From Roseibacillus sp. (lineage in GTDB: Bacteria > Verrucomicrobiota > Verrucomicrobiia > Verrucomicrobiales > Akkermansiaceae): DNA of 18,535 nucleotides. Below, in pieces: positions 6,372 to 18,535 of this stretch. How positions within the stretch are numbered: position 1 is the stretch's first letter; every line of letters begins with the position of its first letter. A model generated the notes under the pieces. It was not told the DNA's origin and searched no databases. It saw only the letters and a program-made list of their open reading frames with translations. Location: the NCBI GenBank assembly GCA_002729275.1, contig PBTP01000072.1:23958-42492 (forward strand), written 5' to 3'. A program made the position numbers and the translations under genes.

Positions 6372-6644
6372 ATGGCTCAGGCAATAATGGATCCGGACGA
6401 GGTCCGGCGGTTCGCCAAGGAACTCAAGCGATTCAACGATGAGCTTCAGGTGAAGGCTTCCTCCCTGCAATCCCGCTTCACTGGCTTGGGAGATACCTGG
6501 AAAGACCAGGAAAATCAGAAATTTGCCGAAGAATTTGTTGGCACTATGAAGGCGCTGCGGAAATTCATCGATATCTCGGAGAAACATACCCCTTTCCTCC
6601 TGCGCAAGGCTCAGAGAATTGAAGAATATCTCGATCAGCGGTAG
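6372..6644 (+). CDS. WXG100-type (ESAT-6-like) small helical protein
   Basis: This encodes 90 residues. It is almost entirely helical and forms two amphipathic helices joined at GLGDTWKDQ, with W43 at the middle as in the WXG100 family (about 100 residues, Trp-x-Gly in the hairpin turn). Here the turn reads W-K-D rather than W-x-G, a variation I believe also occurs in WXG100-like proteins outside Actinobacteria and Firmicutes. The helix after the turn has F51 and F55 (KFAEEF). Known family members dimerise and are exported by type VII systems powered by an EccC/EssC ATPase. The C-terminus (RIEEYLDQR) has a Tyr followed by an acidic residue but not the exact YxxxD/E export signal. It is the first gene of a four-gene operon that ends in an FtsK/EssC-like ATPase, which supports the family call. 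Confidence 0.82.
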   Translation: MAQAIMDPDEVRRFAKELKRFNDELQVKASSLQSRFTGLGDTWKDQENQKFAEEFVGTMKALRKFIDISEKHTPFLLRKAQRIEEYLDQR

Positions 6645-6667
6645 CCCTTCTGCCACCCCGTAATTGC

Positions 6668-7240
6668 ATGGATCGCCAGGCCAAAGTCACATCAGTTGAC
6701 GCTCTGACCGCGTTTCGCACGAGTCTCGTTCTCTACACGGGATCGGTGGGAAATGCCGTCAACGGGGTGCGTGACGAAGTGCGTCGAATGCGAACGTGGC
6801 TCCAGGTGGACCAGAAGGCCTACTGGGGGGGGCGACTCAAGCGGCTCCGCAAGCAACTGGAGCAGGCTGAGGCGGAATTGTTCACCTCCCGGTTGAGCGC
6901 GATGACCAGCCATAGCGCAGCTCGTCAGATGGCGGTGACACGCCTCAGGCGGATGGTGAGGGAAAGCGAGGAGCGGGCGAGGGAGCTACAAAAGTGGATT
7001 CGTAACTATGATAGTCTGGTTGAGCCGCTGCTGAAGAAGTTGGATGGAATACAGCATTTCGCGACTCATGATCTCCCCAAGGCTGCTTCCTCTATCGCCC
7101 AGGCAGAGCGGACCCTCGACGATTACGCCCGTGTCGCAATGGAGGGCGGAGTAGATTCGAGAACAGGAGCAGTAGCGAAAGCCGGAGAGGAAGAGGAGAT
7201 GAGTAGTGATATCCCCACAGAGAAGGGAGAGGACGAATGA
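6668..7240 (+). CDS. coiled-coil protein of WXG100/FtsK operon, unknown function
   Basis: This encodes 190 residues with no signal peptide or membrane segment. The first 35 residues are mixed; from about 35 to 155 it is a long charged helix or pair of helices rich in Arg, Lys, Glu and Leu. Tryptophans at 44 and 53 (YWGGRLKRL) resemble the central turn of WXG-like proteins, though the protein is about twice their length. Residues 160-190 are a flexible, acidic tail (GEEEEM and KGEDE). It begins 23 bases after the WXG100 gene, and its stop overlaps the next start (ATGA), so co-translation with its neighbours is likely. I do not recognise a named family. It may be an elongated secretion substrate, a chaperone or a structural part of the system; its place between two WXG-like genes supports a direct role. 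Confidence 0.75.
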   Translation: MDRQAKVTSVDALTAFRTSLVLYTGSVGNAVNGVRDEVRRMRTWLQVDQKAYWGGRLKRLRKQLEQAEAELFTSRLSAMTSHSAARQMAVTRLRRMVRESEERARELQKWIRNYDSLVEPLLKKLDGIQHFATHDLPKAASSIAQAERTLDDYARVAMEGGVDSRTGAVAKAGEEEEMSSDIPTEKGEDE

Positions 7241-7452
7241 GTGCCCGGGCGAGTGCGGTCAAGCTTACCAAGTCGACCAAGGTATTCATGCAGAGCTGGG
7301 ACCGGGTCAAAAGTTATTGGAGCGATGGGCGGCAACGGGAATTTGAAAAGGACTATATAGAAGCCCTCCCGGACGACGTCTCGGCCGCGATTCGGGTAAT
7401 TGAGGAAATTGATAAGATTCTAACCAGAGCAAGGAGAGACTGTGAGGAGTAG
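7237..7452 (+). CDS. 71-residue WXG-like helical protein
   Basis: The start ATG overlaps the previous stop by four bases (ATGA at 7237-7240), a sign of translational coupling, and the stop at 7450-7452 is one base before the next ATG. The protein is small, charged and helical, with no signal peptide. Around W28 it reads W-S-D-G followed by F36 and Y40. The first gene of the operon reads W-K-D-Q followed by F51 and F55, so both share W-x-D-x(5)-F-x(3)-[FY]. I therefore infer a second WXG-like hairpin protein, with a shorter first helix, that may pair with the 90-residue protein as EsxA and EsxB do. Known families were not matched with certainty. It could instead be an adaptor for the ATPase encoded next. 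Confidence 0.72.
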   Translation: MSARASAVKLTKSTKVFMQSWDRVKSYWSDGRQREFEKDYIEALPDDVSAAIRVIEEIDKILTRARRDCEE

Positions 7453-7453
7453 G

Positions 7454-10400
7454 ATGGGAGTATCGAAGGGCTTGGAGCTCGCAAACGGATTAGCCGGAGC
7501 AATCAGGGATTTTTCCGAGAGGGAGCAGCATGCTGGCAAGAAGATGCGAACAAAGATCTTTGCTGCCAAGCGGACGTTCGAAAGGGGGTCCGAGGAGGAA
7601 AAGGATTCGCTGGAAGCTAACCTTGTCAGCAAGGAAGCGAAACTAGGCGACTCCAAGAAGCATGCGGAGGCCCGCCATGCTGGGAGGGTAGAATGGATTG
7701 AGAGAGCCCTTCCTGCGAGTAAGCGTCAGTTATCGAAGCGGGCTGAGGGTCTGCGTGGCAAGACTGCTTCAGATCTCCAGGTAATGGCCGTAACCAACAA
7801 GGTAAATCGGCAACAGTCTCTCGAGAGGTTGAGTGGAATGTATGAGGGCTTGCGGGTGGAATTAGGGGTGTGTGAGCAGGGTCTTAAAGAGCTGGAGAAA
7901 AAAAGCAGGGTAGCGATGCGTGGATATCCTCGTTTCCAGAAGAAGCTGACACCCGCATATGGCTCCTCTCTTGAGGTCGGACCGCCTGACGAATCGGGGC
8001 AAACTCCAGATTTTCTTGAGCGAGTCAGGTCTGGAATTGAGGAAGGAGAGGAGAAGCTTAAGGGGTTCAAGGATCATGGGCTCGCTCGCATCCTGAGTTT
8101 TTTCCCTTGGTGGGTCATCCTGTCTCTCGGTTGGGGCGGGGCTGCTTATCTCTCTGGCGTGTGGACCGAGAGGGAACATGAATGGGCCCTTGCTGGGGGA
8201 GTAGCGGCCAGCACCGTCCTCCTTGTTATTCTGATCCAGTTTTGTACCGGGGGCAGGGCCGAGCCAGCGGCCGAGGCGGTTGCCGAGCAATTAGAGAGGA
8301 CGAGACGCATATCCAGATCCTGCTCCGAACGAATCTCAACACGTTTCGCGCAAGAGGAAGCGCAGCTCATCTCGGAGGAGAACTCGGAGGGAAATCGATG
8401 GGATGAGGCTGATAAGGCAGCTAGCAGGCTGCGCGAGGAAGGAGGCAGAGCAGTCGATGAAAAATACAGCCGGGTGAACGCAAAGAACGATGAAATGCGC
8501 GATCGAGTCGTAGGGCCGATTGACGCACTTCATGAGAGGGAAGTGCTGACTCTTCGGGAAGAATCAGCGCAAAGGATTGAGGGATTGCGAGAGCGCCGTG
8601 AAGCGGCGGTGGAAGAGACTGAGTCTTCTTATGCCGCGGAACGTAGAAAGATGGAACAGGAGTGGTCCGCGCTCGTGCAATCGATCTACCGTGATTCGGA
8701 TGGCTTAGAGCAGGTGCTTTCGCCTCTGACGCCTGCCTGGGATCAGGAGTATCTGGAGTGCTGGAAGCCCGCGACGGAGTTACATGATGTAGCCCGGTTT
8801 GGTAAGGTCGCAGTGGCGGGGGATCGATTGGCAGAGGAGGTGGCGCTGGAGCTGCCAGATGCGAGGGCGATTGATATCCCCATCGCCCTGCAGCTCCCGC
8901 GTGATGGATCCCTTCTTTTCGAGACCGATGGAGAGGTAGCGGGTCGGGAGGCTGCGATCGGGGCTCTCAATAATATTATCCTGCGGCTTTTGGCTACGAC
9001 CCCTCCGGGGAAGCTCAATTTCACCATCATAGATCCAGTGGGTCTCGGGGAAAATTTTGCCGGGATCATGCATCTTGCCGATTTTGAAGATAGCGTAATC
9101 AACGGAAGGATCTGGACCCAGCGAAGCCAGATCGAGGAAAAGCTGGGGGAGCTCAACGAGCACATCGAAAAGGTGATCCAGATGTATCTCCGCAACGAGT
9201 ATGAGACGATTACGGAATATAATGAACAGGCAGGGAACATTGCGGAAAAGTATCATTTTCTCGTCATTGCAGACTTCCCGGCGAGTTTCAGTGAGGCCGC
9301 CGCCAAGCGTCTGCAGAGCATCGCGATGAGTGGTGCAAGGTGTGGAATTTATACCCTGATGCACTGGGATCACCAGCAGACCGGGGGGCCAGCTGAGTTG
9401 ATGCCTGAAGTTCTTCGTGAAAATAGCATCCGAATTCGCTGGGAGGAGGGGCGCTCTCTGATTTCGACCGGGGAAGGCGCTGAGATGCCTGTTGATTTTG
9501 ATCCGGCCCCCGAACCTGGCGTGGCCATCGATTTCATCCAGAAGATAGGAGCCAGTAGTGTCGACGCCAATCGGGTGGAGGTGCCATTTCGTCATGTTAT
9601 TCCAGCGGAGGGTGAATTCTGGAGTAGTGATACCACCCATGAGCTCAGGGTTCCAATTGGGAGGACAGGGGCAACCAAGCTTCAGTATCTTGCTATTGGA
9701 AAGGGTACTCGTCAGCACGCCCTTTTTGCAGGAAAGACCGGATCGGGAAAGTCGACGCTCTTTCATGTTATTATCTCGAACCTGGCCCTCTGGTGCAGTC
9801 CCGATGAAGTCGAGTTTTACCTGGTTGATTTCAAGAAGGGGGTGGAGTTCAAGTGCTATGCTTCAGCGCGGCTCCCTCACGCCCGTGTGGTAGCGATCGA
9901 GAGTGATCGGGAGTTCGGGTTGAGTGTGCTCAAGAGGGTGGATGATGAACTGAAAATGCGGGGGGATATGTTCCGCAAGATGGGGGTTCAAGATATAGCT
10001 GGATACAAAAGAGCTGGTGGGGAAAAGCCGGTTCCGAGGTCTCTGCTGATGATCGATGAGTTTCAGGAGCTGTTTGTTGAAGACGACCGGATTGCCCAGG
10101 ATGCCTCCGTTCTGCTGGACCGTATTGTAAGGCAGGGACGGGCCTTTGGGATTCACGTCCTGCTCGGATCGCAAACTCTCGGGGGAGCGTACAGCATGGC
10201 CCGGACTACCATGGGCCAGATGGTGATTCGAGTTGCTCTGCAATGTAACGAGACCGACGCCTATCTCATTATGGACGACTCCAATCCCGCTCCCCGGATG
10301 CTGACCCGCCCCGGAGAGGGAATCTACAATGATAGTGCGGGGGCACTGGAAGCCAATAGCCCATTCCAAGTCGTCTGGCTTCCGGATGAAGAGAGGGATG

Positions 10401-11332
10401 AGGCCCTTAAGCAGGTTATCACGATCGCAGAGAAAAATTCCTATGATTGTGCCGCTCCGATTGTCTTCGAAGGGAATTCTCCTGCTGATGTAGGCGAGAA
10501 TGTTCTGCTACAACGTCTCCTCGGAGCTGGGGCAGCAGCTCCTGCGGATCCCAAGCGATCATGGCTGGGTTCTCCAAACTCAATCAAGGGACCAACGGAG
10601 GCGACCTTTCATCGTCAGAGTGGGAGCAATCTCATTGTTATCGGGCAGCGGGAAGAGGCTGCTCTTGCAATGCTGGCTGTTTCACTGGTGTGCCTCTCGG
10701 CACAGTCTGTAAAAGACGGCATTCGTTTCGTGGTGTGCGATGGAACTACGCCCGGCTCTTCGGAGGGTGCGTTTCTTCAGAGTGTGGTCGAAGCGATTCC
10801 GCAGCAGGTTGAACTCGCCAGAAACAGTGATCTCCCCCGGGTAATGGGTGAGTTGGGAGAGGAAATGAAGCGAAGGGCCTCAGATGAGGAGGCGGCCGCC
10901 AAGGATCCGCCGGTTTTCCTCCTTATTCATAGTCTTCAGAAGTTTAAGAAGCTTAAGCACGAGGACGACTTTGATTTCTCGTTCGACAGTGACACGGCGG
11001 GGCCGGGGCCGGGTGCACAACTTAACGAGATCGTTACCGAGGGAACGAGTTATGGGCTGCATGTGATCGCAACAGTGGACACCTATAACAACGTGAACCG
11101 CTTTCTGAGCCGGAAATCTCTCAGTGAATTTGAAATGCGGGTCATCTTCCAGATGAGTCAGAATGACTCTGCCGCCTTGGTTGATAGCCCGGCAGCAAGC
11201 AATCTTGGTCTGCACCGGGCCCTCTTCTACAATGAGCATGAAGGTTATCTGGAAACCTTCCGCCCCTATGCGTTGCCCGGTAATGAGTGGGTAGAGGAGG
11301 TTGGGAAGTCGCTGGGCGGTCTGGTTGGATAA
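7454..11332 (+). CDS. membrane-anchored FtsK/SpoIIIE (EssC/EccC-like) ATPase with coiled-coil N-terminus
   Basis: This encodes 1292 residues. Residues 1-205 are a charged coiled coil; two membrane helices lie near 213-235 and 245-264; a second coiled coil covers about 265-420. Three ATPase-like modules follow. The first (about 470-650) has strands FTIID (523-527) and FLVIADF (602-608) but a ruined P-loop (TDGEVAGRE, 491-499). The second is a full FtsK domain with Walker A GKTGSGKS (760-767), Walker B LLMIDE (864-869) and a GSQTLGG segment. The third has GQREEAA where a P-loop would be (1064-1070) and IHS instead of acidic Walker B residues (1158-1160). Three tandem modules after two membrane helices are the layout of EccC/EssC, motors of type VII secretion. 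ATG 7454 has GAGGAG just upstream; an in-frame GTG at 7442 is the alternative. DNA translocation is possible but less likely given the WXG neighbours. Confidence 0.88.
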   Translation: MGVSKGLELANGLAGAIRDFSEREQHAGKKMRTKIFAAKRTFERGSEEEKDSLEANLVSKEAKLGDSKKHAEARHAGRVEWIERALPASKRQLSKRAEGLRGKTASDLQVMAVTNKVNRQQSLERLSGMYEGLRVELGVCEQGLKELEKKSRVAMRGYPRFQKKLTPAYGSSLEVGPPDESGQTPDFLERVRSGIEEGEEKLKGFKDHGLARILSFFPWWVILSLGWGGAAYLSGVWTEREHEWALAGGVAASTVLLVILIQFCTGGRAEPAAEAVAEQLERTRRISRSCSERISTRFAQEEAQLISEENSEGNRWDEADKAASRLREEGGRAVDEKYSRVNAKNDEMRDRVVGPIDALHEREVLTLREESAQRIEGLRERREAAVEETESSYAAERRKMEQEWSALVQSIYRDSDGLEQVLSPLTPAWDQEYLECWKPATELHDVARFGKVAVAGDRLAEEVALELPDARAIDIPIALQLPRDGSLLFETDGEVAGREAAIGALNNIILRLLATTPPGKLNFTIIDPVGLGENFAGIMHLADFEDSVINGRIWTQRSQIEEKLGELNEHIEKVIQMYLRNEYETITEYNEQAGNIAEKYHFLVIADFPASFSEAAAKRLQSIAMSGARCGIYTLMHWDHQQTGGPAELMPEVLRENSIRIRWEEGRSLISTGEGAEMPVDFDPAPEPGVAIDFIQKIGASSVDANRVEVPFRHVIPAEGEFWSSDTTHELRVPIGRTGATKLQYLAIGKGTRQHALFAGKTGSGKSTLFHVIISNLALWCSPDEVEFYLVDFKKGVEFKCYASARLPHARVVAIESDREFGLSVLKRVDDELKMRGDMFRKMGVQDIAGYKRAGGEKPVPRSLLMIDEFQELFVEDDRIAQDASVLLDRIVRQGRAFGIHVLLGSQTLGGAYSMARTTMGQMVIRVALQCNETDAYLIMDDSNPAPRMLTRPGEGIYNDSAGALEANSPFQVVWLPDEERDEALKQVITIAEKNSYDCAAPIVFEGNSPADVGENVLLQRLLGAGAAAPADPKRSWLGSPNSIKGPTEATFHRQSGSNLIVIGQREEAALAMLAVSLVCLSAQSVKDGIRFVVCDGTTPGSSEGAFLQSVVEAIPQQVELARNSDLPRVMGELGEEMKRRASDEEAAAKDPPVFLLIHSLQKFKKLKHEDDFDFSFDSDTAGPGPGAQLNEIVTEGTSYGLHVIATVDTYNNVNRFLSRKSLSEFEMRVIFQMSQNDSAALVDSPAASNLGLHRALFYNEHEGYLETFRPYALPGNEWVEEVGKSLGGLVG

Positions 11333-12675: not shown

Positions 12676-13689
12676 CTAGAGGATGCCCCGGGCCTTCAGA
12701 TTGTTCAGGCGGTGGGCGATGTCTTCCAGTCCGTCTGCGGTGCACTGGTTGTAGTCCCGTCCGTCAGTGGTGTCGATGCCGTGGCCGGGATCGAGGTCCC
12801 GGAGAGCCTGAAGGGCCGCGTCATCGTGGCGGAAGAGTTCGACAAATACCTGTGACAGGGTCCCGGTTTTCGCTACCGCAGTGAGCAGGGATCCGATCCA
12901 CCCATCATCGGTGGAGAGGCATCCCCGGGTCGTCATGGCCGAGGCATGGAAGCAGCCGAGTACACCCGTTTCACCCATTTGGGCAATGAGATCCTCGTTT
13001 TCGGGAATTGTCAGAGCTGAGTCACCGCAGTGGGCGGCATCAGTGAGAGACTTAAAGAACTTGCTATCCCCGCCGACGAGGGAATTGGTGGCCTGAAGAA
13101 ATTTCCAGAGTCGGCCAATGTCGGTGAAGGTGGCGAACTCCCCGGGCCGCAGGAACTCCACATGCCAAGAATCGACACAGGAATCGGCGAGGGCTGCCTC
13201 AGTATAGCATCGATGATGAAGTTTGGCATTCTGCTCTACGGCCGCCTCGAAGTCGGGGCCGTCCTTGCGAGGTGAGCCGCTCATCCACTCCTCGATCGAG
13301 GTAGATGATACGATAGTTACCCCATGGTTCTTGGCTGCTTCCAGTCCCGGGAGAAGCTGGTCTGTCACTGCGGACTCGTCCTCGGGATTCATGGGGTCAG
13401 CACCTCCCACCATGAGGACAAAGTAAAGGTTAAGGCCGAGGTCCTTGAAGCCGTTGCAAATCTCATCGAAGTCTTCTGGCTTGGTGCCGGGAATGACTGG
13501 AACCTGCACTCCATCAAGTTTTACAGCGCTGAGCTTCTGGAGCTTTTTCATCTCAGAGAGAACAACGAGCTCGCCCTCACTGGTTCGTGGAGCGTTGCCA
13601 TCATCGTCAGGAACGATTCCTCCTACCCATCCGGAGTGGGTAGCAACGACTCCAATTTCAATGTCGGTTTTGTTGATGATATCAGCCAT
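12676..13689 (-). CDS. xylose-isomerase-like TIM-barrel protein, substrate unknown
   Basis: This encodes 337 residues with no signal peptide. I do not recognise it as a named enzyme. Its strand-helix pattern fits a TIM barrel, and possible metal ligands fall in the order usual for the xylose isomerase-like superfamily: E178 in WHVEF, D217 and H220 in DAAHCGD, H248 in CFHAS and E284 in FVELFRHDD. The N-terminus reads EIGVVATHSGWVGG, and LYFVLMVGG lies at 88-96. The C-terminus (NQCTADGLEDIAHRL) is helical. The ATG at 13689 is the start I prefer; an in-frame TTG at 13728 would add 13 residues and neither start has a good ribosome binding site. It stands alone on the minus strand between two PQQ-like propeller genes, so a related role in sugar metabolism is possible but only inferred. 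Confidence 0.65.
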   Translation of the reverse strand: MADIINKTDIEIGVVATHSGWVGGIVPDDDGNAPRTSEGELVVLSEMKKLQKLSAVKLDGVQVPVIPGTKPEDFDEICNGFKDLGLNLYFVLMVGGADPMNPEDESAVTDQLLPGLEAAKNHGVTIVSSTSIEEWMSGSPRKDGPDFEAAVEQNAKLHHRCYTEAALADSCVDSWHVEFLRPGEFATFTDIGRLWKFLQATNSLVGGDSKFFKSLTDAAHCGDSALTIPENEDLIAQMGETGVLGCFHASAMTTRGCLSTDDGWIGSLLTAVAKTGTLSQVFVELFRHDDAALQALRDLDPGHGIDTTDGRDYNQCTADGLEDIAHRLNNLKARGIL

Positions 13690-13828
13690 GGCGTTGAAGC
13701 AGTGTCCAAAGTGAGCGGCATTGGTCAAGAATCGTGGTGCCCTTATTATTTATCGACTGTTGGTAATCAGGTGCTCGTTACTCCGATTCTTGTTGAGGAT
13801 CGCAAGAAGGCCTGACTGTAGTAGGCCT
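13690..13828. promoter_or_regulatory. divergent intergenic region upstream of TIM-barrel and second propeller genes
   Basis: This is 139 bases between two outward-facing genes and must hold promoters for both if each is transcribed from here. The A/T-rich stretch TTATTATTTATC at 13743-13754 is the only promoter-like patch; read on the minus strand it gives GATAAATAATAA, which could hold a -10 element. No matching -35 was found, and no hairpin was seen. Confidence 0.3.
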
Positions 13829-16591: not shown

Positions 16592-16619
16592 GGGGGTGAA
16601 TCTTGTCCAAGGGGGTGAA
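16592..16619 (+). promoter_or_regulatory. 9-bp direct repeat upstream of DUF6600-like gene
   Basis: GGGGGTGAA occurs at 16592-16600 and again at 16611-16619, 19 bases apart, within the 144-base divergent region between the transporter and the DUF6600-like gene. An A/T patch that is nearly palindromic, TCGATATATTGA, lies about 20 bases upstream and includes TATATT, a possible -10. The paired repeats could bind a regulator. The second copy could instead act as a ribosome binding site for an in-frame TTG start at 16626. Confidence 0.35.
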
Positions 16620-16634
16620 CCAATTTTGTCGATC

Positions 16635-18535
16635 ATGAAGCGTTTTATCTCCCTTTTCCCTGCTCTTGCTACCGTTTGCCTCCTGCCCTGCTGCGACCTT
16701 GCGAAGCTCTCGGTTGACGGAGAAAAAAGAAAACTGAAGCAAAAGGTTGCGCAGCTTGAAAAAGAGCGGGAGGAGGCGGCCCTCGATGCCGAATTGGAGG
16801 AGGCACGTCGTCAGCTTGCGATTGCTCTCAGTGAACACAAGGAAGGCGACCCTGTCGGAGAGGGGGAACTGGCTGATAGCGCCACAATTGATTCCAATCT
16901 GGGCGAGCTGGTGGAGTTCGAAGATGTTCCCCGGGCTATCGTGGTGGAGGAACCGCCGCGGAACGATGACTTTCGAGCAAGTGAGGAAACCGCAGTGGCC
17001 CTTGAGGCAACTGTTCCGGCAACCCTGCTTAATACTGGGGACCACCAGATTTTCTTCGCAGAGCTTTCGAGGTTTGGTGAGTGGCTTCAGACGAGGGACT
17101 ACGGATTTGTATGGCAGCCAACGTCCTTGCGGACCGATCCGGCATGGAGACCCTACACCAGGGGGCGCTGGGTGAATTCTGACCAGGGATGGACTTGGCT
17201 CTCGGACGAGCCCTTCGGGTGGGCGGTCTACCACTATGGGCGCTGGATACTTGTCGCCCAGCACGGATGGGTGTGGGTGCCCGGGGATGACTGGGCTCCG
17301 GCCTGGGTGTCCTGGCGTCAGAACGACGACTATCTCGGGTGGGCTCCTCTGCCTCCTGAAACTCTCTACGACGAAGTCTATGACTACGACCCCGGGATCG
17401 ATCTGGCTTATGATGTCTCTCCTGACTACTACAACTTTGTTCCGGTGGACCACTTCTACGAGCCGGTGTATTCCCATTGTGTTCCACGGGAGACAGTTAT
17501 CACTATCGTCATCAGGACTCGCAATGTGACGCGTTTTTCCATGCAGGACAACCGAGTGCATTGCGGGGGGCCGGATTTTGCGTGGGTGAACCGACACGCG
17601 AGCCGCCCGGCACGCCGCTGCCAGATAGATCTGGGCATAGGTCGCGACCACTTCGCACACCGTCATCATCATCGGTTACACGAAAACCGAGTCCAACTAT
17701 TTGCTCCGCGGGTTGATGCGTCCTGGAACGCTGCCGTCTGCCCCAGTCGAGTTGCGAGGAACCTCGGGCGAGTGGAGATCGTACGGGCCGGTAAGAGAGA
17801 GATCAAACGGGACCTCAGGTATCGTCATCATGAGGCCAGAGTGCGACGTCATGAAGCGGCAAGAGAAGCGATCGAGAGTCCAGAATGTCAGGTAGCCCTG
17901 CGCAACAACCAACAGCAAAGGAGGAATGTGGAAGAACTTCCAGATGGAGAGGAGAACCCCGTGGAAGAACGGCAGCGTCGCAGGGCGAGGGCCGCAGAGG
18001 GCTTGCGTGCCACCACTGAGGCCGTTGCGACAGCAGAGCGCAGAGTAGAAGAGCGTAAACTACAGCCCGGGGCGCGGGAGGAGGCCCGCAGGAAAATAGA
18101 GCAGGCTGAGAAGGAGTTGGCAGTTGTGCTAGAGTCCCCGAATACCCGTAGGAATGGCGGAGAATTGCGACCGGGAAGGCGGGGTGACGCGGAGAATTCC
18201 TCCGTTGAAGATCATCGAGCCGAAATGGCTCAGCAGCAGGCTGGGGAAGCGAAGCAGCGTGCTCTTTTGGAGGAGAAAGTGGCGGATGAGAAGCGCCGTG
18301 TTCTGGCGGAGCAGCAAGCGGCGGAGGCCAAGCGGTTGGCATTAGCTCGCCGGCAGGCCGTGGAGGTGCAGCAGCGTAGTCTTGTAGAGGAGAAGGCCGC
18401 AGAGGAGAAAGGCCGGGTTCTTGCGGAGCAGCAAGCGGCGGAGGCCCACCGCTTGGCATTAGCTCGCCGGCAGGCCGTGGAAGTGAAGCAGCGTACTCTT
18501 GTAGAGGAGAAGGCCGCAGAGGAGAAGCGCCGGGT
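16635..18535 (+). CDS. exported DUF6600-like protein with long charged coiled coil (3' end outside window)
   Basis: The frame is open from ATG 16635 to the last base, so at least 633 residues are seen and the end is missing. Residues 1-20 are a signal peptide (KRFISLFPALATVCLLPCC); the two cysteines suggest a lipoprotein, though the -1 residue is not typical of a lipobox. A short coiled coil follows at 28-65. Residues 150-240 are rich in Trp, Tyr and Gly: WQPTSL at 160, then GRWVNSDQGWTW, FGWAVYHYGRW, GWVWVPGDDWAPAWVSWR and GWAPLPPE. This pattern is that of the DUF6600 family, found in exported bacterial proteins and of unknown function. From about 390 on, the protein is dominated by Arg, Glu, Ala and Gln and forms a coiled coil with 39-residue repeats at the window end. 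An in-frame TTG at 16626 is an alternative start. A role in the cell envelope is inferred. Confidence 0.82.
   Translation, partial: MKRFISLFPALATVCLLPCCDLAKLSVDGEKRKLKQKVAQLEKEREEAALDAELEEARRQLAIALSEHKEGDPVGEGELADSATIDSNLGELVEFEDVPRAIVVEEPPRNDDFRASEETAVALEATVPATLLNTGDHQIFFAELSRFGEWLQTRDYGFVWQPTSLRTDPAWRPYTRGRWVNSDQGWTWLSDEPFGWAVYHYGRWILVAQHGWVWVPGDDWAPAWVSWRQNDDYLGWAPLPPETLYDEVYDYDPGIDLAYDVSPDYYNFVPVDHFYEPVYSHCVPRETVITIVIRTRNVTRFSMQDNRVHCGGPDFAWVNRHASRPARRCQIDLGIGRDHFAHRHHHRLHENRVQLFAPRVDASWNAAVCPSRVARNLGRVEIVRAGKREIKRDLRYRHHEARVRRHEAAREAIESPECQVALRNNQQQRRNVEELPDGEENPVEERQRRRARAAEGLRATTEAVATAERRVEERKLQPGAREEARRKIEQAEKELAVVLESPNTRRNGGELRPGRRGDAENSSVEDHRAEMAQQQAGEAKQRALLEEKVADEKRRVLAEQQAAEAKRLALARRQAVEVQQRSLVEEKAAEEKGRVLAEQQAAEAHRLALARRQAVEVKQRTLVEEKAAEEKRR
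18255..18535 (+). repeat. 117-bp tandem repeat (39-residue coiled-coil unit), two full copies and a third cut by window end
   Basis: Copies begin at 18255, 18372 and 18489, each 117 bases apart and in frame with the coding region. The unit runs from QR[AST]L through VLAEQQAAEA and LALARRQAVEV. The second halves of copies 1 and 2 are identical at the DNA level over long blocks, including silent positions. A weak half-unit (AEMAQQQAGEAK) just before 18255 suggests older, decayed copies. Confidence 0.9.

Follow-up and report, generated by a model that had tools for sequence, protein, structure and literature searches.

A conserved operon of WXG100 proteins and a membrane ATPase in Roseibacillus and other Verrucomicrobiota and Planctomycetota: a candidate reduced type VII-like system

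The type VII secretion systems (T7SSs) of known structure need partner proteins. Structural studies of them have shown a number of membrane proteins in addition to the ATPase and have yet to settle which component makes the channel. Their ATPases, EccC in the T7SSa of Actinomycetota and EssC in the T7SSb of Bacillota, are built of a transmembrane hairpin, a stalk, and DUF and ATPase modules. Here we describe a four-gene operon of Roseibacillus sp. (Verrucomicrobiota) that lies in a window of 18,535 nucleotides (assembly GCA_002729275.1, contig PBTP01000072.1, positions 23,958 to 42,492) and encodes a WXG100 protein, a helical hairpin protein, a short WXG100-like protein and a large ATPase. The operon shares with T7SSa and T7SSb the WXG100 proteins and, by fold, a membrane ATPase with DUF and ATPase modules. 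Its ATPase differs from EccC and EssC in having fewer ATPase modules, in carrying a coiled coil in the place of the FHA domains reported for EssC in the part of PMC11090510 that treats these ATPases, and in forming a separate clade.

The existence of this kind of locus, a WXG100 protein with a distinct three-module ATPase, is already known from work of 2012 and, in its CoCoNuT-linked form, of 2024. Footnote 6 to Table 1 of PMC3482391 places planctomycetes and verrucomicrobia among the lineages in which solo WXG domains occur with a distinct three-module YueA-like ATPase whose middle module alone is active, and regards such loci as apparent mobile versions of the T7SS. In the sections of PMC11090510 on the CoCoNuT-linked form, this form is described as being without transmembrane domains and Anantharaman 2012 is cited for stand-alone copies. 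The closest described relatives are the TerY-P/CoCoNuT Type III-A operons. As far as these parts of the two papers describe them, they share with our operon the ATPase clade (that of a Caballeronia plasmid locus), two WXG100 proteins, one lacking the classical motif, a coiled-coil protein, an N-terminal coiled coil on the ATPase, and three ATPase modules of which only the middle one is active. They differ in that the coiled coil is fused to a nuclease, the neighbours include TerY-like VWA proteins, and transmembrane helices are absent (PMC11090510). In contrast, the form found in the Planctomycetes-Verrucomicrobia-Chlamydiae (PVC) group mostly has a membrane hairpin and a coiled coil without nuclease, and no VWA protein was found among the 10 window proteins scanned. 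In Helicobacter pylori, HP0062 clusters with an FtsK-type ATPase in the HP0062-HP0066 cluster, described in passages of PMC3397514 and PMC4978471; the latter also reports an HNH/ENDO VII nuclease in the WXG100 secretion system cluster and gives Anantharaman 2012 as its reference 46. The T7SSg of Acetivibrio and Paenibacillus is likewise small, with a pair of WXG100 proteins and an ATPase that lacks FHA domains, but includes the ubiquitin-like TsgB and the beta-propeller TsgL and occurs in Gram-positive hosts, according to the account of it in PMC11217815. Apparently new are the PVC branch itself, which is anchored in the membrane, free of toxins and for the most part single-copy, the EccC DUF module that it carries, and the co-retention of its parts after dispersal. 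No title listed by our literature searches was devoted to the PVC system, and a fuller earlier description may exist.

The operon consists of four genes on the same strand, with the ORF (open reading frame) coordinates given in the original prediction, which had been made from the DNA alone. Gene 1 (6372..6644, + strand) encodes the WXG100 protein of 90 amino acids (aa), gene 2 (6668..7240, +) a two-helix hairpin or coiled coil of 190 aa, gene 3 (7237..7452, +) the WXG100-like protein of 71 aa, and gene 4 (7442..11332, +) an EccC/EssC-like membrane ATPase. The predicted spacing of 23 bases between genes 1 and 2 and of -4 bases between genes 2 and 3 also stands. In contrast, the predicted gap of 1 base and ATPase length of 1292 aa presuppose a start at ATG 7454. 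Judged by comparison with relatives, GTG 7442 is likelier, yielding 1296 aa and an 11-base overlap with gene 3, because a GTG start (46/57 four-gene relatives) and an overlap of 8 or 11 bases (44/57) prevail among them; the starts in the relatives were picked by alignment to the GTG form, so that these counts are no independent proof of it.

The same arrangement is conserved across PVC genomes, which was the check proposed with the original prediction; small genes that were not kept beside the ATPase would have spoken against it. In a scan of a genome collection, 79 loci of Verrucomicrobiota and Planctomycetota were obtained from the best 80 of 85 confirmed matches, and the small genes stand in the four-gene order beside the ATPase in 62 of the 65 loci whose sequence ahead of the ATPase gene exceeds 1.3 kb. 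A script count that also called for an aligned ATPase start found all four genes in 57 of 58 loci. This count excluded 21 loci, 14 with less than 1.3 kb upstream and seven with more than 1.3 kb but a poorly aligned N terminus; five of the latter (L064, L069, L092, L093 and L105) have all four genes and two (L076 and L108) have none of the small genes adjacent. Because 57/58 aligned loci keep the order, the arrangement is not due to chance. The 4-base overlap of genes 2 and 3 recurs in 49/57 four-gene loci, and in one locus (L059) the ATPase is spread over two frames. When flanking ORFs of at least 70 aa were clustered, no further neighbour family appeared in more than 8/79 loci; the larger clusters of minus-strand ORFs on the operon itself are read as shadow ORFs.

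Both small WXG proteins of the original prediction were borne out. Gene 1 scores 37.9 bits against PF06013 (cut-off 27.3), has the turn W43-x-D45 and is 90 aa long in 57/57 four-gene loci, and its C-terminal tail, EEYLxQR, is kept in most rows of the PVC alignment. Among PDB sequences its best match is H. pylori HP0062, followed by EsxB. In the alignment of gene 3, W21, W28-x-D30 and F36 are invariant and C69 is near-invariant. A profile-profile comparison (hhalign) with WXG100 gave E 6e-6 and a probability of 85% with the W-x-D in register, and the WXG profile picks up gene 3 in two relatives (G045, E 1e-4; G037, E 1e-3). Homology of gene 3 to the 76-aa Caballeronia protein in the same slot was unsupported by profile comparison (probability 2%). 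The dN/dS ratios are low, and are lowest on gene 1 in 5/6 comparisons.

The ATPase has the build of EccC/EssC, and the three ATPase-like modules that had been predicted are all recognizable. An N-terminal helical or coiled-coil region (residues 1-212, 7442..8077, +), assigned from sequence only and outside the folded model, precedes a membrane hairpin (residues about 213-268, 8078..8245, +), placed by hydropathy and by helices in the model, with stalk helices next. An EccC-type DUF module without Walker A follows (residues about 393-708, 8618..9565, +), then the active module (residues 726-975, 9617..10366, +), recognized by PF01580 and by alignments to EccC, EccC5 and YukB modules and bearing the Walker A motif GKTGSGKS at 9731-9754, and finally a degenerate C-terminal module (residues about 1008-1296, 10463..11329, +). 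The Walker A motif is G[KR]TGSGKS in 67/67 family ATPases. The two predicted membrane helices hold for most of the family, in that 53/67 members have two or more hydrophobic N-terminal segments above the hydropathy threshold (one in 9, none in 5), but in the window ATPase itself only the second, 250-268, passes. The protein scores 99 bits against PF01580 (FtsK_SpoIIIE); among NCBIfam models EccCa (TIGR03924) scores 114, EssC 95, EccCb 93 and FtsK 23 bits, all under the equivalog cut-offs (509 for EccCa). Among PDB sequences, Thermomonospora curvata EccC, EccC5 and YukB rank above FtsK. A Foldseek search with the model likewise places EccC best and EssC next, both ahead of FtsK, and in VIA-align the first module matches the EccC DUF domain.

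Phylogenetically, the PVC ATPase is best described as a third clade, neither FtsK nor inside EccC/EssC, as far as a tree of the active module can tell. In this tree 20 PVC rows and six plasmid or gut ATPases (26 rows) split from EccC/EssC, FtsK and others at 99/99; the 20 PVC rows group at 99/94, and the EccC/EssC rows join at 65/10 only. The tree contains several long branches, and the points at which the six plasmid/gut ATPases attach are not firm. The ATPase thus does not group with FtsK/SpoIIIE, the outcome that would have spoken against the original prediction: the four chromosomal FtsK rows form a group of their own (98/96) across the 99/99 branch. Nor does it fall inside EccC/EssC, so that in this respect the original prediction is not supported as stated; it is joined instead by plasmid-borne WXG100-ATPase operons. 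Separately, about 1,850-aa open frames in two genomes (L134 in G054 and L135 in G043), with a C-terminal FtsK-like module, form their own branch and are possibly SspH/DndH-like.

In a tblastn search of plasmids, ATPases of Rhodococcus, Deinococcus, Caballeronia and Helicobacter were closer than EccC/EssC (174-362 bits for the best five rows, against 66-96 bits for the rows annotated as EccC/EssC among the 40 listed of 363). Profile searches found WXG100-type proteins beside 4/5 of these plasmid ATPases; at the fifth locus (L115) the only small proteins are helical and unassigned. On the Helicobacter plasmid (L111) the order is WXG100, nuclease, SMI1/KNR4, small protein and ATPase, so that a WHH/colicin-DNase protein and then a SUKH protein fill the slot of gene 2, a difference from the PVC form; the comparison with Helicobacter was made on this plasmid locus. 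The ATPase of L111 is 823 aa long. The Caballeronia slot holds a 436-aa coiled-coil protein without Pfam match that by eye fits a CoCoNuT coiled coil and D-ExK nuclease. One verrucomicrobial genome (G262) holds both forms, a PVC-type locus (L144) and a TerY-P-type locus (L143) with the order VWA, WXG100, 442-aa coiled-coil nuclease-like protein, 125 aa, 82 aa, ATPase and Card1-like CARF protein; the 442-aa protein is 47% identical to the Caballeronia protein. Two further observations concern this clade. In Deinococcus and Rhodococcus the plasmid ATPase gene has next to it a gene of its own for a helical protein that is hydrophobic in a C-terminal segment (L113:8201-8626 and L115:11496-12104); this protein may correspond to the N-terminal coil and membrane hairpin that are fused to the ATPase elsewhere. 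Beside the ATPase in a gut record labelled phage (L124:6322-7371) is a 349-aa protein with a weakly WXG-like N terminus (E 0.005-0.04) and, by eye, a zincin-like HELGH motif, followed by an 82-aa protein; the two could be a toxin-immunity pair.

The co-occurrence of the genes extends beyond their linkage. Among 58 genomes near that of the window, 31 have the ATPase family, and of these 29 have the WXG100 gene and 29 have gene 2; where WXG100 (G005, G033) or gene 2 (G004, G033) is missing, a contig ends in or beside the operon. The 27 ATPase-negative relatives gave no WXG100 match at E 0.01 and no gene-2 match better than E 0.004. In several genomes the genes are scattered. The WXG100 gene stands alone in the fetched stretch in G361, G442, G424, G474 and G531, with gene 2 elsewhere and the ATPase at a third place, and gene 3 was detected beside gene 2 in G361, G474 and G531. 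The positions of WXG100, gene 2 and ATPase are 2.50, 4.30 and 5.92 Mb on contig C1 of G361 and 0.71, 2.66 and 0.23 Mb on contig C1 of G442; in G489 only the ATPase lies apart, at 0.7 Mb from the cluster of genes 1-3. The ATPases of seven split-gene planctomycetes form one branch of eight rows that includes the operon-type L101 (SH-aLRT 99, quick method). The association was examined in 24 genomes, nine of them WXG100-positive (eight planctomycetes and the verrucomicrobium G333, mostly chosen for unusual arrangement) and 15 picked from 20 listed WXG100-negative planctomycetes. The ATPase was found in 9/9 positives and 0/15 negatives, the weakest positive at E 9e-275 and the best negative, covering the P-loop region only, at 1e-26; gene 2 was found in 8/9 positives (not G444) and 0/15 negatives. 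Because the parts are retained in the same genome without linkage, this is strong genetic evidence that they work together.

Two divergent loci may be recorded here. G444 has a planctomycete form (L177:3042-6631) of a WXG100 protein, a 119-aa protein with, by eye, a hydrophobic N terminus and a 1006-aa ATPase, with gene 2 undetected; its membrane part may be a separate gene. In G247 (L145) the WXG100 region is at the end of a long 461-aa open frame, where a start inside the frame is likelier than a fusion.

The distribution of the set is patchy. At E 1e-6, WXG100 was found in 16/288 sampled Verrucomicrobiota (own genome included) and 24/199 sampled Planctomycetota. In the genus of the window 14/15 genomes have the set, and the remaining one (G013, 97% complete) lacks it. 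This absence and the patchy distribution suggest that the set is dispensable.

None of the T7SS partners looked for was recovered with these genes. The original prediction that none is encoded on either side of the operon agrees with a Pfam scan of 10 window proteins, which matched no partner family, EccD, EccE, mycosin, EssA and EsaA included; these five were searched for in the window and not genome-wide. Elsewhere in the genomes, YukC/EssB (PF10140) and YukD (PF08817), both absent in contrast to T7SSb, were found in 0/58 relatives each with a positive Bacillus subtilis control. EccB (PF05108) was also found in 0/58, yet no control genome matched either, so that its silence proves nothing.

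In the plasmid relatives from Helicobacter and Caballeronia, a nuclease or a protein resembling one occupies the slot of gene 2. The AlphaFold2 model of gene 2 (pLDDT 88) shows a long hairpin of two helices (residues 10-76 and 83-160), followed by a C-terminal tail of low confidence, and a fold search with it returned generic coiled coils only, none at E 0.001. Homology to the N-terminal coil of a Rhodococcus protein without Pfam match (L114) was supported (hhalign E 1e-5, probability 82%; three coiled-coil pairs used as controls gave 5% or less). In contrast, homology to the Caballeronia or Helicobacter effector coils was unsupported by profile comparison (probability 1% or less), and only the position of the slot speaks for it. 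A toxin remnant in gene 2 was considered for the PVC branch and rejected, its length being 159-198 aa in 56/57 operons. The exception, in a Phycisphaerae genome (L103:5682-6752), is a 357-aa gene 2 with a C-terminal Imm33-like domain (PF24719) of immunity type; a toxin is not visible. The 58 relatives yielded no convincing effector elsewhere with the gene-2 domain and no convincing further WXG100 copy, toxins without these domains being undetectable in this way. The extra matches were gene 3 itself in two genomes (G037 and G045), a partial WXG100 in G009 (E 4e-19, 47/90 positions) and weak gene-2 matches in G026 and G035 (E about 0.004). The TerY-P-type second locus of G262 belongs to a genome outside these 58.

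We put slightly better than an even chance on the operon being a reduced type VII-like inner-membrane export unit, in which the ATPase drives WXG100 cargo to the periplasm. The ATPase would be anchored in the inner membrane by its two-helix hairpin and, by analogy with its EccC and FtsK kin, would hexamerise. Its single active module would then power the cargo, presumably gene 1 and probably the small gene 3, through or out of the membrane. The cargo may dock by its conserved C-terminal tails on the degenerate last module, and the gene-2 hairpin may be a co-exported partner or a scaffold, in the slot where plasmid kin carry a nuclease-type effector. The periplasm would be where the cargo arrives; no step across the outer membrane is encoded beside the operon. 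Export is favoured because the order is kept in 62/65 loci, the genes co-occur and are co-retained when scattered, Foldseek ranks EccC/EssC first, the DUF module matches that of EccC and dN/dS is low, and because WXG100 operons of the same clade carry toxin-like cargo. Several observations weigh against it. Export by this ATPase clade is itself something that we infer, and the nearest plasmid ATPases (Helicobacter and Caballeronia) are without the N-terminal membrane hairpin, so that export may not be ancestral. Five of the 67 family ATPases also lack an N-terminal hydrophobic segment, the N terminus of four of these being poorly aligned. With EccC, the Foldseek alignment extends far but fits loosely (TM 0.31, rmsd (root-mean-square deviation) 16.6) because the module orientations differ, and the last module ties with FtsK in VIA-align. 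One locus (L067) has no WXG100 gene, another (L042:1-411) shows, unlike its kin, no gene 3 in three frames of its 411 upstream bases, and in L076 and L108 the small genes do not adjoin the ATPase, WXG100 and gene 2 being present on another contig in these genomes. No signal and no outer-membrane part was found beside the operon, and unlinked, lineage-specific membrane partners could exist. Finally, Ser/Thr-kinase-like ORFs, recognized by eye, lie near genes 2/3 in G361 (L192:2535-3482) and behind the divergent ATPase of G247 (L145:11997-13001), as in conflict loci.

These kinase-like ORFs are among the points that favour a non-secretory reading, a machine of conflict or stress that is bound to the membrane and in which the ATPase would remodel or release WXG100 and coiled-coil partners inside the cell. 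Members of the clade also adjoin VWA, PP2C, kinase, CARF or Hsp70/GrpE genes, some being without the membrane hairpin, and the CoCoNuT authors, in their discussion of members without transmembrane domains, think a different mechanism likely for these (PMC11090510). We nevertheless hold such a machine to be rather unlikely for the PVC branch, which mostly has the membrane hairpin and the EccC DUF module, whose listed recurrent flanking families, inspected by eye rather than by domain search, include nothing resembling a cassette of VWA, CARF or Ser/Thr-kinase type, and whose PADLOC matches are at the generic FtsK/HerA level, such as SspH and mad8. Somewhat less improbable is that the type VII-like system is complete, its remaining membrane parts being specific to the lineage and encoded at other sites; this reading is compatible with export, departs from the reduced unit only in not being minimal, and has chances that overlap with those of that unit. 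The dependence of structurally known T7SSs on partner proteins counts for it, as does the scattering of even known parts in some planctomycetes, so that partners need not adjoin, but YukC and YukD are absent from 58/58 relatives and no other family lies beside the ATPase in more than 8/79 loci. A DNA translocase or conjugation-like pump is very improbable: the active module scores 62-69 bits with module 1 of EccC/EssC and 37-42 with four chromosomal FtsK proteins, the tree parts the ATPase from FtsK, and the WXG100 partners and EccC DUF module argue the same way. Overall, the original prediction of a minimal type VII-like system in a diderm is supported in part: the conserved unit, the EccC/EssC build and the lack of detectable YukC and YukD speak for it; the ATPase, however, lies outside EccC/EssC, and the kind had already been published.

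The surroundings of the operon accord with the predicted sugar-metabolism and beta-propeller neighbours. The Pfam scan matched sugar/aldolase-type enzymes and PQQ beta-propeller proteins, the nearest scanned neighbours being an OMP-decarboxylase/HUMPS protein, a short-chain dehydrogenase/reductase (SDR), a xylose-isomerase-like TIM barrel and PQQ propellers. The window also contains a 350-aa ORF (12676-13728, - strand) without Pfam match at E 1 and, open-ended at 16596-18533 (+ strand), a long protein that runs off the window and whose charged C-terminal part repeats stretches like AEQQAAEAKRLALARRQAVEV. The nearest named relatives by identity are Roseibacillus and Akkermansiaceae metagenome-assembled genomes.

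In conclusion, a mostly single-copy, toxin-free set kept at low dN/dS suggests a housekeeping or envelope role rather than warfare. We suggest tentatively, as a doubtful extension, that it is a self-sufficient four-protein translocase of diderms, in which the ATPase with its own membrane hairpin, two WXG100 proteins and the helical hairpin would be all the parts, and which arose when a mobile cassette for toxin export was domesticated and took on a settled role without a toxin. If this were true, the four-protein machine would be the simplest known type VII-like transporter. A branch that retains the ATPase, the WXG100 proteins and the helical hairpin even when they are scattered opens the question of the minimal translocase to direct test. 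It also has implications for the way in which an export motor of Gram-positive type could operate in a cell with two membranes, and for the possible conversion of mobile toxin cassettes into fixed functions.

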